In this document: positions 10,715 to 25,945 of the stretch, piece after piece
Layout of the letters: every line of letters begins with the position of its first letter
How positions within the stretch are numbered: position 1 is the stretch's first letter
Position numbers and translations under genes: made by a program
Origin: a virus
IMG/VR virus record: IMGVR_UViG_3300034418_009035
Span: 1 to 42,048 of that record
DNA length: 42,048 bases
Strand: one strand, 5' to 3'
The notes under the pieces: model-generated
The model's input: the letters and a program-made list of their open reading frames with translations, nothing else
What the model was told of the DNA's origin: nothing
The model's database searches: none

Positions 10715-12407
10715 TTTCCACCTCTTTCAATTCGTTCGGCTTCACTCTTGAAGCGTCGATCATTTCAAAATATTTACCTTTCTGACGCAACTTGATCCAG
10801 CCTTTAAAGTTTGACAAATCAGACCTTAATTCAAAAGCTTGCATGTTATTCTGAAACTTCTTGAACCTGCCTGTCAACAACTTCCATTTGTTCGCGGCGC
10901 GGTAGCTTAAAAACTCATTGGAAAAATTCAAATACTCGGCGTGGAATTGTTGCTCAACTGTTATTCCGAAAATCGACTGCATTGGCTCGGACTCATAAAA
11001 TAAAACTCTAATCATTTCATTCTTTTTCGAGCTGGTATACAATTCGACTTTTACTGAATCAACCTGAAACCATTTCGCGGTCTTTTGTTTTTCCTTCTTC
11101 AATTCAATATCAACTAATTCGACCTTTTTAATAACCTTAGCGAAAAAGTGACCGCATTCACTACAGGCTTCAGCCGTACCGCTCACAATCTCATTACAGG
11201 ACGGGCAAACTTTCCCACCACCAAACGCCTCTTCCTTCTCTTCCAGCTCTTCCACGCTCTTAAATTTCCACCGCTCTTTGTAGGTGGGCACATGGGGCTT
11301 TGCCGGGTGTCCGTGGCGTGCGTAGTTGTCCGAAAGGTCAAGCACTATGCAATCGTCCTTCCCTTCTGCGATCCGCGCACCGCGCCCGACCATTTGAACG
11401 AAAAGGCTAGCTGATAGCGTTGGCCTGGCAAGCACGATACAGTCGATTTCTGGATAATCAAAGCCAGTAGTTAAAACGCCTACGTTACAGCAAGCGCGGA
11501 GCCTGCCTGATTTGAATTGCTCAAGTATTCGATTGCGCTCTTTCTTCGGCATTTTGCTGTGTACCGTATCGCACTCTATACCCGCTGAATTTAGCAAATC
11601 AGAAACGCGCTTCGCGTGTTCAATCGTCACGCAAAATATAATGATATGCTCGCGCTCCTGGGCGTGCTTTTCGATGCTATCAAGAACGCTTCCGATATGG
11701 CGTATCATAACTTTTGACAAGTCGCCTTCGTTGTAGTCGCCTGCCGTTCTTTTCACGCTTGACAAGTCTTTTCTTGCTGTTGGGCTCGCTTTGTATCGGA
11801 TCGGGCAAAGATAGCCTTGTGATTGTAGTTCGTCCATCGAAATTGAATAGTTGAGCCGGTCAAACCAATTCGCGCTTTCATCTTTGCAGGCGTTCCCAAA
11901 AATGTAACCGTGATTGAGTCGGTACGGCGTAGCAGTAAAGCCAAGCAGTCGCGCTGTCGGTCTTTTGCTTCGATTTATGTCGATTATATCTTTGTACTGA
12001 CTCGGCTTGTTTTTCGGCGCAAGCGTATGCACTTCGTCAATGATTATCAGGTTAAACGGCTCGCAGAACTGGACAAGCTTGCTATAACTTTGAGGCGTTG
12101 CTATCAGGATCGGTTTTTTAACTTGCTTTTTTGCGCTCACACTTGAGCAACAAATGCCGATATTTTCAACGCCTTCGGGGTAGACCGCTTTGATTTTGTC
12201 GAAACTTTGCTCGACTAACTCTTTTTGACGGGTCAAGATCAGAGTGCGAAACGATTTGAATTTTGTGTGATAGCGTTCTATCAAATGGCTGAAAATTACG
12301 GTTTTCCCTGCACCAGTCGCCGCCTGCAACAGCGCGTTATCTTCTTCTAGTAGGTCGGCTTGTATTGTGGTTATTGCGTCCTCTTGATATTTTCTGAGGT
12401 TTAGCAT
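10707..12407 (-). CDS. SF2 DEAD/DEAH-box helicase with zinc ribbon
   Basis: 566 residues with the full SF2 motif set: Q-like KYQEDAI at 6-12, Walker A AATGAGKT at 29-36, DEVH at 124-127, TATP at 158-161, a helicase C domain with FCVTIEHAKR at 258, TTGFDYP at 313, and motif VI QMVGRGAR at 338-345. A four-cysteine zinc ribbon follows (C401, C404, C415, C418). It resembles UvsW/RadD-like phage and bacterial helicases that remodel branched DNA, fitting the resolvase and Sak4-like genes in the same operon. The start overlaps the dcm stop by 7 bases and has a GAGG site. Confidence 0.9.
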   Translation of the reverse strand: MLNLRKYQEDAITTIQADLLEEDNALLQAATGAGKTVIFSHLIERYHTKFKSFRTLILTRQKELVEQSFDKIKAVYPEGVENIGICCSSVSAKKQVKKPILIATPQSYSKLVQFCEPFNLIIIDEVHTLAPKNKPSQYKDIIDINRSKRPTARLLGFTATPYRLNHGYIFGNACKDESANWFDRLNYSISMDELQSQGYLCPIRYKASPTARKDLSSVKRTAGDYNEGDLSKVMIRHIGSVLDSIEKHAQEREHIIIFCVTIEHAKRVSDLLNSAGIECDTVHSKMPKKERNRILEQFKSGRLRACCNVGVLTTGFDYPEIDCIVLARPTLSASLFVQMVGRGARIAEGKDDCIVLDLSDNYARHGHPAKPHVPTYKERWKFKSVEELEEKEEAFGGGKVCPSCNEIVSGTAEACSECGHFFAKVIKKVELVDIELKKEKQKTAKWFQVDSVKVELYTSSKKNEMIRVLFYESEPMQSIFGITVEQQFHAEYLNFSNEFLSYRAANKWKLLTGRFKKFQNNMQAFELRSDLSNFKGWIKLRQKGKYFEMIDASRVKPNELKEVENG

Positions 12408-13387
12408 TGCTCAACCTCTTTTATTGCTTGACCGATCAAAAATGGAATTTGAGGAACTACGGCGTTTCCTAGTCCTTTAATTCTGTGTGCCCGATTGGAA
12501 AGCCCATTAACCACTCTACCCACTCCAAGTTCAGTTGCCCAGATGCCTTTCTGCCACTTTCTAATTCCTTCGTTGATACTGTGTTGCAAAGCCTTATGTA
12601 ATGCCCTTTGCTCTTTCGCTGCTCTTCTGTAAGATTGTTGTATTTGTCTGCTTCTGATGCTGTTGGAGTTGGAAACATTTCTGGATGCGCCACTTGATCC
12701 CTCAAGTTGATGGGCATTCCTTGTTCCATCTTCCGAATCATAGTCTCCTTGCTCTTTGGGCCGCCTGTCCCTTCTGATGCTGTCGGCGTTCTGAATATCG
12801 GTGGAGTCCAGTTCTCCCTTGCAGCCTGTAAAGTTGATTTTGGGCCGTTCTTCTTGTTTCCGTTTTTGTTCGGGGCTTCGCAAGCTGTTGGGGTTGGAAT
12901 CAGGTTTGTTCGCAACAATCCAAATTCTCTCTCTTTTGTGCCAAGCTCCAACCGCTGAAGCTGGAATGCAAAACCATTGCACACAATACCCCGCTTGGGC
13001 CAAGTCTCTAAGAACTCTTCCGAAGTACCGCCCAGACTCACTTGAGAGAAGCCCTGGGACGTTTTCAGCCACGACCCATTTGGGTTGAGCTTCGCAAATG
13101 ATCCTATGCATTTCTCCCCATAAATCTCGTGAATCTTCTGAAGCAAGTCTTTTACCTGCGAGCGAGTGAGGCTGACAGGGGAAGCCTCCTGTAACAATGT
13201 CGATTCCTTTGTATTCTTTTCCATCTAGTTTCCTTATGTCTCTATGAACTGGTACGCCTGGCCAGTTCTTGTTCAATACTTTTGTTGGATAATCTTCGAT
13301 TTCACAAAAGGCGGTTGTTTCAATTCCTGCCCAGTGAAAACCAAGAGCAAACCCACCAATGCCTGAAAATAAGTCAAGTGATTGCAT
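12401..13387 (-). CDS. dcm: DNA cytosine-5 methyltransferase
   Basis: C5-methyltransferase that would modify cytosine in phage DNA. The start at 13387 (MQSLDLFSGIGGFA, 328 residues) is chosen over the ATG nine codons upstream because an AAACGAAAGGGAAAG box lies directly before it. Motif I DLFSGIGG is at 4-11, motif IV GGFPCQP with catalytic C71, motif VI ENVPG with E108, motif VIII KRERIWIVA, and motifs IX-X near the end (RIKGLGNAVVPQ). Residues about 160-290, where the target-recognition region sits, are unusually rich in Asn, Ser, Arg and Gln, which the overlapping gene on the same strand may explain. The role could be protection from host restriction or gene control. Confidence 0.92.
   Translation of the reverse strand: MQSLDLFSGIGGFALGFHWAGIETTAFCEIEDYPTKVLNKNWPGVPVHRDIRKLDGKEYKGIDIVTGGFPCQPHSLAGKRLASEDSRDLWGEMHRIICEAQPKWVVAENVPGLLSSESGRYFGRVLRDLAQAGYCVQWFCIPASAVGAWHKRERIWIVANKPDSNPNSLRSPEQKRKQEERPKINFTGCKGELDSTDIQNADSIRRDRRPKEQGDYDSEDGTRNAHQLEGSSGASRNVSNSNSIRSRQIQQSYRRAAKEQRALHKALQHSINEGIRKWQKGIWATELGVGRVVNGLSNRAHRIKGLGNAVVPQIPFLIGQAIKEVEQC
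12469..13224 (-). CDS. Overprinted gene inside dcm (TPTASEA / WVEWLMGFP family)
   Basis: A 251-codon ORF on the same strand as dcm, shifted +1, and entirely inside it. It has its own AAGGA site 6 bases before the ATG. The protein has ordered motifs I recognise from a widespread phage protein family of unknown function often found beside methyltransferases: LNPNGSWLKTSQGFSQ, EEFLETWPKRGIVCNGFAF, repeated TPTASEA-type segments (IPTPTACEAP, FRTPTASEGTGG, FPTPTASEADK) and the C-terminal GQLNLEWVEWLMGFPIGHTEL. Chance shadow ORFs do not carry family motifs in order. Function unknown; a methyltransferase partner or specificity factor is speculation. Confidence 0.78.
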   Translation of the reverse strand: MEKNTKESTLLQEASPVSLTRSQVKDLLQKIHEIYGEKCIGSFAKLNPNGSWLKTSQGFSQVSLGGTSEEFLETWPKRGIVCNGFAFQLQRLELGTKEREFGLLRTNLIPTPTACEAPNKNGNKKNGPKSTLQAARENWTPPIFRTPTASEGTGGPKSKETMIRKMEQGMPINLRDQVAHPEMFPTPTASEADKYNNLTEEQRKSKGHYIRLCNTVSTKELESGRKASGQLNLEWVEWLMGFPIGHTELKD

Positions 13388-13410: not shown

Positions 13411-14034
13411 TCAAAGTTTTCGAAGTCGTTTCACTTCCTCAGACCATAGCAATTTTTCCCATCTATCAGTGACAACCTGCGAGTTTTTATCAAGCTCTAT
13501 GAAATACGCATTGCTGGCGAACTCTTCCGCGCTCATTTTGTATTGTGCCTTGATTCGCTTGTCGAAGCTGTACAAGTATTTTTTGATCGTTCTTGATTTC
13601 ATCTTCTTATTCTTGCAAGCGCGTACAAGCAAAAGCCTGTCTCTATCGTATGCGCTGAATAAGTCGCTGTGCTTGAAATTGAAAAGCGGTTTCAATTGCG
13701 ATTGTATTCGGTCTAAAAAAGCATCGTCGAAATTTGTTAGTTTTTCAATTTTCCCCTTCTCAATAAGTTTGAGGAAGTACGCGGTTTTTGGATCGTTCTT
13801 TTTGATATAAGCGTAGCTTTCGCGCTTCATTTTCTCGGTCGGCTCTTCACCTGCTTTGATTTTCCAGGGGTTTGAATACTTGCCAGTCAAACATCCCGCA
13901 TAGAAATCAGCTCGGTCGATACACTTGAAAAGATGCGTTAGGCCACGGAAAATATCGTCAATACTCACACAATTTGCAGTCGTGCAGGTATTGTCAGAAC
14001 TTTCAAAGTAGCGCACTTCCTCGTTATCACTCAT
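13411..14034 (-). CDS. Hypothetical 207-residue replication-block protein
   Basis: Its ATG overlaps the stop of the SSB-like gene (TAATG), so it is probably coupled to it. The sequence is charged and mostly helical, with cysteines near the start (C17, C22, C37, C48) and a basic stretch (ACKNKKMKSRTIKKYLYSFDKR). No family is recognised. Position between the SSB-like and methyltransferase genes suggests a DNA-metabolism accessory. The longer dcm reading (start at 13414) would overlap its stop by 4 bases; the preferred dcm start at 13387 leaves a 23-base gap. Confidence 0.7.
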   Translation of the reverse strand: MSDNEEVRYFESSDNTCTTANCVSIDDIFRGLTHLFKCIDRADFYAGCLTGKYSNPWKIKAGEEPTEKMKRESYAYIKKNDPKTAYFLKLIEKGKIEKLTNFDDAFLDRIQSQLKPLFNFKHSDLFSAYDRDRLLLVRACKNKKMKSRTIKKYLYSFDKRIKAQYKMSAEEFASNAYFIELDKNSQVVTDRWEKLLWSEEVKRLRKL

Positions 14035-22616: not shown

Positions 22617-23333
22617 ATGGATCAAAACTTTAAATACGACTTACTGACCGACGAAATCACCGAGCGGTTTTTTGAAGCCGCGCACAAAGAAAACGCGGAG
22701 CAGGAGGGGCGTACCTACCTCGGCGCTTCTATTATCGGGCATCCATGCCTGAGGCGGTTGTATTACTCCTGGACAGCCGGAAGCGTTCCAGTAGAGGGCA
22801 GGGTAGCTCTAATCTTCAAGGTGGGCCATGCGCTTGAGGATTTGGTTATCAACACTCTAAGAAATGCAGGATATGTATGCGAAGAGCCACAAAAGGGTTT
22901 TTCTGATTTTGATGGAAGGTTTAAAGGCCATGTTGATTCGATCATCAAAAACTTAGTGCAAACCGAGGACGGAAAATTTCACGATGCTATTCTTGAGGTA
23001 AAGACAGCGAACGACAGAAAGTTTAAACTCTTTCAAAAAAATACAGTAGTCAAAACTGATGCAAACTACAAAGCTCAGGCACACGTATACATGCACTACT
23101 TCAAAAAGCGCTATTGTCTTTTCGCGGTCATCAATAAAAACAATTGTCAGATATACTTTGAAGTTGTTGAATACGATGAAGAAGTGGCGCAAGAGATGAG
23201 ACAAAAAGCGCAGTTTATCTTCAACGCAAAGAGCGAGCCACCGATACCAGAAGGTTTTAATCAAGATTGTTTCGAGTGCATGTACTGTAGTTATAATACC
23301 GCTTGTTATGGTCAGAAAGATTTGCCGTTTTAG
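22617..23333 (+). CDS. Cas4/RecB-like Fe-S PD-(D/E)XK nuclease
   Basis: 238 residues from the ATG at 22617, after AAAGGGAAA. The nuclease core reads H71 (KVGHALED), D107 (GHVDSII), E127-V-K129 (ILEVKT) and Q154-A-H (YKAQAHVYMH), the RecB-type order. C44 (IIGHPCLRRLYYS) together with C221, C224 and C230 (C-x2-C-x5-C) matches the split four-cysteine iron-sulfur cluster of Cas4 and AddB nucleases. Such enzymes resect DNA ends to single strands; with the Sak4-like and SSB-like proteins on the other strand this gives a complete recombination set. Confidence 0.85.
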   Translation: MDQNFKYDLLTDEITERFFEAAHKENAEQEGRTYLGASIIGHPCLRRLYYSWTAGSVPVEGRVALIFKVGHALEDLVINTLRNAGYVCEEPQKGFSDFDGRFKGHVDSIIKNLVQTEDGKFHDAILEVKTANDRKFKLFQKNTVVKTDANYKAQAHVYMHYFKKRYCLFAVINKNNCQIYFEVVEYDEEVAQEMRQKAQFIFNAKSEPPIPEGFNQDCFECMYCSYNTACYGQKDLPF

Positions 23334-23344
23334 GAGTTTGGAAA

Positions 23345-24112
23345 ATGAAAAAAATTGACGAAACAGGAACAGACGAAATCAGAGTGCGCGCTCAAAACTT
23401 TTCGATGCTTTGCACTAATATCTATGCAATGGAGTTTTTCAGAAAGCAACACGCACACATGATAATGGGAACTGGAAAAGTTCACGGCGTAGAATTTGCC
23501 ATTTTAAATATGTGGGGCGATATTGTAATAGTCGTCCAGGGCACGAACGACCTGAAAACTGCCCTGCATGATGGGATGATATGGAAAACGTCCGAGGGCT
23601 TGGAACCGTTCAAATTTCACGCAGGGTTTAACCGCATCGCTTCTAAAATGGCTGACTTTCTTATTGATTGGGATATAGTAACTTCAAGACGACTATACAT
23701 CACAGGGCACAGCGCGGGCGGTGCGATTGCTCAAATCTTGGCGTATCACCTGGAAATAAGGCACGATATAGAAGTGGAAAAGGTGTACTCTTTCGGCGCG
23801 CCGATGATTACAACACACGGACACGCTTGCAGATTGCAGGCAGGTCACATAGCGAAAAAGATATACAACTTTATGCTTGAGAAAGACGAAGTTACAGACG
23901 TGCCGACAGGTTTGCCGTTTTTCTATGACTATCAGCGAATAGGGAGGCTATTCTGGATTAACGTAAACAACGTGCCCGAAAAGGCATACACTACAACAAA
24001 GTACAGGCGCATCACGCGAAACCCGCTAAAAAACTTCTGGTTTGAGAGGGTTGACGATCATGCGCCATTGCACTACTTTCGATGCCTGAGCAAGCTAAAA
24101 GTTATCGTTTAA
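23345..24112 (+). CDS. Class 3 lipase-like alpha/beta hydrolase
   Basis: 255 residues from the ATG at 23345, with TAGGAG 9 bases upstream. The nucleophile elbow GHSAGG with S123 follows a strand LYIT. The segments VVQGTND at 63-69 and FKFHAGFNRIA at 89-99 match the oxyanion and lid-side segments of class 3 lipases. The acid is D181 or D185 (LEKDEVTDVP), and the base probably H243 (APLHYF). There is no signal peptide, so it acts in the cytoplasm or is released at lysis. A lipid or ester substrate is expected; the target is unknown. It is unusual in a replication-side gene cluster. Confidence 0.82.
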   Translation: MKKIDETGTDEIRVRAQNFSMLCTNIYAMEFFRKQHAHMIMGTGKVHGVEFAILNMWGDIVIVVQGTNDLKTALHDGMIWKTSEGLEPFKFHAGFNRIASKMADFLIDWDIVTSRRLYITGHSAGGAIAQILAYHLEIRHDIEVEKVYSFGAPMITTHGHACRLQAGHIAKKIYNFMLEKDEVTDVPTGLPFFYDYQRIGRLFWINVNNVPEKAYTTTKYRRITRNPLKNFWFERVDDHAPLHYFRCLSKLKVIV

Positions 24113-24617: not shown

Positions 24618-24767
24618 ATGCCGATTCAAAAAGTTAAAGGCGGGTTTCGTTACGGTTCACGCGGTAAAGTCTACAAGACGCGCTCAGAAGCAACGAAGCA
24701 AGCCAGGGCGATCCATGCGAGCGGATACAAGAAGCCAAAGCGACCCGGTAAGAAGAGAAGGACTTGA
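24618..24767 (+). CDS. Small basic phage protein before the methyltransferase
   Basis: 49 residues, MPIQKVKGGFRYGSRGKVYK ... TKQARAIHASGYKKPKRPGKKRRT. The pattern KGGFRYGSRGKVYKTRSEA ... QARAIHASGY is one I recognise in very small phage proteins near methyltransferase and terminase genes, function not established. There is no clear ribosome site (TATTACTACT upstream), yet the coding pattern is convincing. The stop overlaps the next ATG by one base. Confidence 0.62.
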   Translation: MPIQKVKGGFRYGSRGKVYKTRSEATKQARAIHASGYKKPKRPGKKRRT

Positions 24768-25945
24768 TGCAAATTAAAGAAAAACCGTTGAAGGATTTGA
24801 TACCGTATGCTAGGAATCAACGTAAGCATTCAGAGGATCAGGTTAAAAAAATCGCTTCAAGTATAAGAGAGTTCGGTTTTAAAAACCCCGTAATCGTAGA
24901 CAAGGATATGTCCATAATCGCAGGGCATGGACGTTGCCTAGCGGCTGAAAAATTAGGTCTTGAAAAAGTGCCTGTGATTGTTGCCGATGATTTAAGTGAG
25001 GCGCAGGTTAAAGCCTACCGACTAGCGGACAATAGACTTCAAGATTTATCCGAGTTTGATATGGAATTAGTTAGTCTGGAGCTTGAAGAGTTGCAAGGGC
25101 TTGATTTTGATTTAGAGTTGACTGGTTTTGACGCTGATGAAATTGCGAGCGAGCCGATTGAGGGCTTGACCGATGAGGACGAAGTCCCAGAAGCACCCGA
25201 AGAGCCGAAAACTAAGCTGGGTGATATTTGGCTACTCGGTAATCATAGGGTTATGTGTGGGGATAGCACAGATGCGGAGCAGGTGGCAAAGTTGATGGAT
25301 GGTAAAAAGGCTGATATGGTTTTTACTGACCCGCCTTATGGGGTAAGTTATGAAGGTGGTCATTTCCATTCGGGTGATGTAAATATTAAAAGAAAAAGGG
25401 AAAAACTAAAGAATGACGCTACTGAAGACATTTATTCAAGAGTAGTTCCGGTTATATGTCAATTTTGTGATGGCCCCATCTATACTTGGTATGCCGACTC
25501 TAAGCCACTTGCCTTGTATAGTGCTGTTTATGAATTTGGTGAAATACACGCGCTCATTATTTGGCACAAGACAAATGCAAAATATGCGGCAATGAACGCT
25601 CAATATAAACAAAGACATGAACCCTGCTTATATTGGAAACCAAAAGGCAAAACTCTAAAATGGTGTGGCCCTACTAATGAAGCCACTGTCTGGGAAATAA
25701 AGAGGGACTCTAAAAATGATTACCATCCTACGCAAAAACCCACAGCACTAGCAGAAAGGGCAATAGGAAATCATAAGGCTGAAAACTGCCTTGATTTATT
25801 TCTCGGCTCAGGTTCCACACTAATCGCCTGTGAAAAAACAGGGAGAACTTGCTATGGAATGGAGCTTGATCCAATTTATTGTGATGTGATTGTAAAGCGA
25901 TGGGAGGATTTTACAGGGAAAAAGGCGGTTTTAAGTGAAGCGTAA
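24767..25945 (+). CDS. ParB-domain DNA methyltransferase (DPPY type)
   Basis: 392 residues, a two-domain protein. Residues 1-125 form a ParB/Srx-like nuclease-fold domain (LIPYARNQRKHSEDQVKKIASSIREFGF, IIAGHGRCLAAEKLG, VKAYRLADNRL). Residues 150-392 are an amino-methyltransferase with DPPYG at 188-192 and the cofactor motif LDLFLGSGSTLIA at 342-354, order beta class. DPPY suggests N6-adenine methylation. Such fusions are common in phages just before the terminase. Start at 24767 uses AAGGA 6 bases upstream and shares one base with the previous stop. Confidence 0.9.
   Translation: MQIKEKPLKDLIPYARNQRKHSEDQVKKIASSIREFGFKNPVIVDKDMSIIAGHGRCLAAEKLGLEKVPVIVADDLSEAQVKAYRLADNRLQDLSEFDMELVSLELEELQGLDFDLELTGFDADEIASEPIEGLTDEDEVPEAPEEPKTKLGDIWLLGNHRVMCGDSTDAEQVAKLMDGKKADMVFTDPPYGVSYEGGHFHSGDVNIKRKREKLKNDATEDIYSRVVPVICQFCDGPIYTWYADSKPLALYSAVYEFGEIHALIIWHKTNAKYAAMNAQYKQRHEPCLYWKPKGKTLKWCGPTNEATVWEIKRDSKNDYHPTQKPTALAERAIGNHKAENCLDLFLGSGSTLIACEKTGRTCYGMELDPIYCDVIVKRWEDFTGKKAVLSEA

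Follow-up and report, generated by a model that had tools for sequence, protein, structure and literature searches.

A conserved gene nested in the +1 frame of a phage cytosine methyltransferase gene, the probable second chain of a two-polypeptide enzyme

Can a phage gene for a cytosine methyltransferase also encode, in another frame of the same strand, a second conserved protein, and what would that protein do? The question arises from the viral record IMGVR_UViG_3300034418_009035, of which positions 1 to 42,048 form the window analyzed here (the whole stretch of 42,048 nucleotides). Its C5-cytosine methyltransferase (C5-MTase) gene, Dcm, wholly contains an open reading frame (ORF) of 251 codons at 13224..12469 on the minus strand, which we call P2. 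The original prediction had placed a second conserved gene in the +1 frame of the methyltransferase gene at 12469-13224, and its coordinates, strand, and frame were correct. P2 begins one base past the Dcm frame, with its ATG immediately 3′ of an in-frame TAG, and its stop codon adjoins Dcm motif X. All of the P2 motifs quoted in the prediction are present, as is the AAGGA that it noted 6 bases before the ATG. The start of Dcm is most likely the ATG at 13387, giving 328 amino acids; a TTG at 13414 is an alternative that would give 337. Quite probably, the product of the locus is a C5-cytosine DNA methyltransferase of two polypeptides, namely a catalytic chain and P2, a nested chain bearing the target-recognition domain (TRD) and motif IX.

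The arrangement recurs in relatives. A search of IMG/VR with P2 alone returned 520 relatives, and a P2 profile run against the genomes of 84,980 prokaryote species returned 292; the best 80 of each were kept. P2 overlapped Dcm in 80/80 of the viral and 80/80 of the genome loci, always in the same relative frame and with the ORF kept open, which is the recurrence expected by the original prediction. No free-standing P2 without an overlapping Dcm was found among these 160 loci (the best 80 per collection). Genomes carrying the overlap include members of Bacillota, Pseudomonadota, Bacteroidota, Nitrospirota, Verrucomicrobiota, and an archaeal bin, and the overlap is also present on a methanogen plasmid. 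A few of the genome relatives have a break or a shift in the Dcm frame. With Dcm as the query, 29 loci were recovered, and a long open +1 stretch was seen in all of them.

Recurrence of this kind might merely be a shadow cast by the conserved Dcm protein and its codon use, or by a constraint at the DNA or RNA level, in which case P2 would not be a gene; we regard this as extremely improbable. Synonymous Dcm codons were shuffled within each of 95 genes, and in 83/95 the +1 open stretch was longer than in the shuffles (p<=0.01), versus 2/95 for the control +2 frame. The shuffled genes were also fairly stop-poor in the +1 frame, which speaks for a shadow in that some of the openness comes about as a by-product. 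When profiles trained on other clusters were applied to 25 clusters separated at 60% identity, the +1 translation resembled P2 beyond its own shuffles in 25/25 (median z = 11.5). Across nine independent pairs, fourfold sites of Dcm were changed at 78/682 positions (11%) inside the overlap versus 74/211 (35%) outside, and the change was lower inside in 9/9 pairs (Fisher p = 6.5e-14); third-position change in Dcm is thus constrained across the overlap, as had been anticipated. A Shine-Dalgarno (SD) match of at least 5 bases accompanied 56% of the best P2 start candidates versus 7% of control sites, a figure inflated by choosing the best of several candidates; in a best-of-k control, the observed mean was reached in 0/2000 draws. 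C5-MTases without P2 from the same genomes gave no long P2 match (one 15-bit chance match) and no excess +1 opening except one at p=0.04, and nested genes in the same control set did display the excess. The reciprocal shuffle gave 0 stops in the Dcm frame versus 126 expected over the recognition and motif IX part, a comparison that is partly circular since the genes were delimited by the Dcm ORF. The shuffle tests, the fourfold-site constraint, the SD enrichment, and canonical genes free of such a pattern all argue against a shadow. Overall, we conclude that the P2 and Dcm frames are both conserved and under purifying selection.

The Dcm frame contains a C5-methyltransferase catalytic domain, with motif IV PCQ at residues 69-71 (P0001), ENV at 107-109, RxR at 151-153, and GN at 306-307; the PC, EN, RxR, and GN columns are invariant across 108 sequences. 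These elements bear out most of the Dcm motif list in the original prediction, except for motif IX, as the sequence resembling it lies in P2. In the nested genes, the Dcm frame was found to hold no LTPREC-type motif. The Dcm-frame segment ELGVGRVVNG is an out-of-frame reading of P2 LNLEWVEWLMG, and the conserved EPGVGRVAHGVP of the nested Dcm frame is LNPEWVEWLMGFP read one base shifted. In an AlphaFold2 (AF2) model of the Dcm chain, the catalytic domain and motif X were confident. The predicted local distance difference test score (pLDDT) was 44-56 at residues 171-240, no fold was predicted at 175-242, one helix was predicted at 243-280, and confidence was low at 281-301. Foldseek aligned this model with M.HhaI over only ~164 residues. 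The recognition region had been noted as rich in Asn, Ser, and Arg, and these make up 32% of residues 161-283 versus 14% in the catalytic domain; V/I/L/M/F/W/Y/C account for 16% of the same residues, and the hydrophobicity of the linker is 18% versus 30% for canonical recognition regions. A chain holding both a folded TRD and motif IX was not found in the Dcm frame. Together, sequence and model point to a Dcm frame that consists of motifs I-VIII and X with a putatively unstructured linker replacing the recognition domain and with no motif-IX-like sequence.

P2 is built from an N-domain, PTPTASE-type repeats (one to several), and a C-terminus that hardly varies, LNPEWVEWLMGFPIGWTDL. It matches the PHROG family phrog_1008 ("DNA methyltransferase") over residues 4-249; other nested ORFs, such as that of Paenibacillus phage Bloom, match the same family. 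The C-terminal motif LNPEWVEWLMGFP matches the C5-MTase motif IX (LTPRECARLQGFPD) that is missing from the Dcm frame. By hhalign, the P2 C-terminus is linked to motif IX of fused and split actinophage forms (P=2.9e-15), and these are linked in turn to canonical motif IX-X (P=1.5e-6).

Natural REARRANGEMENTS among the relatives comprise split and fused forms and forms in which motif IX has returned to the Dcm chain. In the Mycobacterium phages Hexamo and Familton, two genes overlap, of which alpha carries motifs I-VIII and beta carries P2-type sequence with motifs IX and X, and a Brevibacillus locus (L143) displays the same split. ShiLan gp70 combines motifs I-VIII, IX, and X with PTP repeats in a single chain. 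In Gordonia JKSyngboy, Arthrobacter 1191A, and a Megaera plasmid (L205), motifs IX and X are in the Dcm chain, and the remaining P2 is still in the +1 frame. The in-frame fusion of ShiLan gp70 lends some credit to a programmed +1 frameshift past motif VIII, by which one chain would carry motifs I-VIII, the recognition region, and IX, with unshifted Dcm and free P2 as by-products. Such a shifted chain would be without motif X and would leave the conserved P2 N-domain unused, and P2 starts have their own enriched ribosome-binding sites; we hold a frameshift to be very unlikely. An alternative with a somewhat better claim, still unlikely in our judgment, is that P2 is a real nested protein merely translated from the same mRNA, with another role such as counter-defense, repair, or regulation of the methyltransferase. 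Its conserved N-domain was not found in canonical C5-MTases, no match to P2 was found in Pfam, NCBIfam, or PADLOC, and a PDB sequence search gave chance matches only, all of which would suit an independent role. Against that role stand the motif-IX-like segment, present in P2 and missing in the Dcm frame, and the split and fused relatives, in which P2-type sequence follows motif VIII of the enzyme and precedes motif X. Most likely, then, P2 is not an unrelated neighbor gene and carries the target-recognition region and motif IX of the same enzyme.

For the two-polypeptide enzyme, we propose that one mRNA with two starts would yield the Dcm catalytic chain and P2. The Dcm chain would provide S-adenosylmethionine binding, the catalytic Cys, motifs I-VIII, a flexible linker, and motif X. 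P2, started in the +1 frame through an internal ribosome-binding site, would supply the target-recognition region and motif IX and would dock onto the catalytic domain as a small domain, with motif X of the long chain completing the fold. The assembled chains would form a sequence-specific enzyme, probably shielding phage DNA from host restriction. We infer that P2 is translated, binds Dcm, and recognizes DNA and that the enzyme is inactive without it. Several observations weigh against this proposal. Compared directly, P2 and canonical motif IX gave a weak profile match (P=0.004, Prob 8%); AF2 modeled P2 alone with low confidence (pLDDT 64), and Foldseek returned no meaningful fold match, which leaves a recognition-domain fold unsupported; and the P2 N-domain, overlapping motifs VI-VIII, would have a role that the proposal does not explain.

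In a tree of catalytic domains, one branch (Shimodaira-Hasegawa-like approximate likelihood ratio test [SH-aLRT], 94) parts all P2-bearing forms from canonical enzymes. The overlap defines one C5-MTase clade, with canonical C5-MTases lacking it. Split, fused, and motif-IX-returned forms fall inside the nested ones in at least 3 places of this tree, which was built quickly and has several weakly supported forks and one misplaced row (L068). The nested form is therefore probably ancestral in the clade, and small frame-to-frame shifts have probably resolved it on repeated occasions, an order of events that the quick tree suggests.

Some relatives depart from the common layout. In one large subgroup, which includes L010 and the similar high-GC loci L033, L044, and L065, the P2 frame is open over nearly the whole Dcm gene. 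L010 has two candidate starts four bases apart (2712-2716), by which nearly the whole gene would be dual-coded. An Actinomycetota bin (L180, 1940-3893) has two tandem P2/Dcm-type copies, and the catalytic part of the second is unrecognizable. In Synergistaceae L132 (~2471) and L141 (~2220), an extra 6-9 bases with TAA directly follow the catalytic PCQ (TGC CAG TAA CTR ...); the Dcm frame ends there, and P2 and the downstream Dcm frame remain open. This insertion is possibly a site of recoding, a restart, or the scar of an inserted element. Synergistaceae L121 (~1300-1910) carries an HNH-like segment in the P2 frame after the first Dcm motifs and has an altered PCQ site (GGFPQRG); the segment is possibly a homing element inserted at the same place as in L132 and L141.

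Division of C5-MTase motifs between two polypeptides is already known from M.EcoHK31I. Lee reportedly described in 1995 that the small-subunit gene of this enzyme lies inside the large one in another frame and that activity needs both proteins. M.EcoHK31I has motifs I-VIII and X on its large polypeptide and IX on the small one, M.AquI is split into two polypeptides near the recognition region, and divided M.SssI, M.HhaI, M.BspRI, and M.BsuRI display functional complementation (PMC3404938). By motif positions and the motif IX profile link, the present locus resembles M.EcoHK31I (YGGCCR) in its distribution of motifs. It differs in that M.EcoHK31I is a restriction-modification enzyme and its predicted TRD is said to lie in the large subunit; no fold is predicted for the corresponding Dcm-frame region. 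If the M.EcoHK31I beta chain were homologous to P2, the locus would belong to the same kind. M.EcoHK31I was not found among eight enterobacterial plasmid methyltransferases examined, which contained no full-length nested P2 and one weak 27-bit match (L243); in those inspected, motif IX is in frame. M.AquI shares with our proposal an enzyme in two polypeptides and is closer to the split form of the actinophages than to the nested form. In the M.AquI-type split, alpha holds motifs I-VIII and beta holds IX and X, whereas P2 stops where motif X begins and X is in the Dcm frame; motif X is on the small subunit in relatives L194, L201, and L143.

P2 belongs to phrog_1008, and the family name gives no hint of nesting in dcm or of a missing catalytic domain. 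The nested arrangement is annotated in records of the Paenibacillus larvae phages Lily (gp63, "g62 internal gene") and Bloom (BLOOM_57), where the function is labeled methyltransferase only; in some P. larvae phage records, both ORFs bear a methyltransferase annotation. The searched parts of a 48-genome paper do not discuss the overlap. The original prediction knew of no published account, and within the libraries searched, our literature searches likewise found none of this overlap; for the division of motifs, a precedent does exist in M.EcoHK31I (PMC3404938). What seems unreported in those libraries is a family-wide obligate overlap in phage methyltransferases with measured dual constraint and derived architectures.

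Table 1. Features of the Dcm/P2 locus, in window positions
Feature	Position	Strand	Evidence
Dcm, catalytic chain, motifs I-VIII and X	12401..13387	-	Pfam PF00145 E 5.9e-53; AF2 model matches M.HhaI, ~164 residues
Nested gene P2, +1 frame, 251 amino acids: N-domain, PTPTASE-type repeats, motif IX	12469..13224	-	PHROG phrog_1008 E 4.9e-27; conservation and constraint tests
Shine-Dalgarno-like AAGGA and 6-base spacer upstream of P2 ATG	13225..13235	-	sequence; SD enrichment in relatives
P2 N-domain (GSFAKLNPNGSWLKTSQGF...EEFLETWPKRGIVCNGFAFQL), overlaps Dcm motifs VI-VIII	12925..13113	-	alignment A1
P2 repeat 1 PTPTAC; SNPNSL in Dcm frame	12880..12897	-	sequence
P2 repeat 2 TPTASE; NADSIR in Dcm frame	12772..12789	-	sequence
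P2 repeat 3 PTPTASE; SNSNSIR in Dcm frame	12652..12672	-	sequence
P2 motif-IX-like segment LNLEWVEWLMGFPIGHTEL	12478..12534	-	hhalign profile comparisons
Dcm-frame linker, residues 161-283, at place of TRD	12536..12904	-	AF2 pLDDT, composition
Dcm motif X and C-terminal helix (GNAVVPQIPFLIGQAIKEVEQC), begins at P2 stop	12404..12469	-	sequence; pLDDT 92-96 in last blocks

Two other genes were noted in the window. A putative second methyltransferase at 24764-25945 (+) appears to combine a ParB-like N-terminal part with a DNA methylase (DPPYG motif) and adjoins a small-terminase-like gene. An ORF at 23303-24112 (+) with a GHSAGGA motif resembles class 3 lipases, which would be unusual for a phage genome.

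Long same-strand overlaps in which both frames are selected, conserved across phyla, are rare in prokaryotes. Beyond the single locus, we lean toward the view that a large C5-MTase clade of phages and prophages, probably of one origin and present in archaea and in several phyla of bacteria, has its specificity chain obligatorily encoded within its own catalytic gene, in the +1 frame. The Dcm recognition region would now be a passenger linker, single-base indels would repeatedly have moved segments between frames, and many "orphan Dcm" genes in databases would be half-annotated. Because this family offers diverged examples by the hundreds, canonical enzymes as an outgroup, and relatives that have naturally escaped the overlap, it allows direct tests of how overlapping genes arise and are resolved. 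An essential part may also be missing from clones and annotations of methyltransferases in the clade, which would make assignments of activity and specificity misleading.
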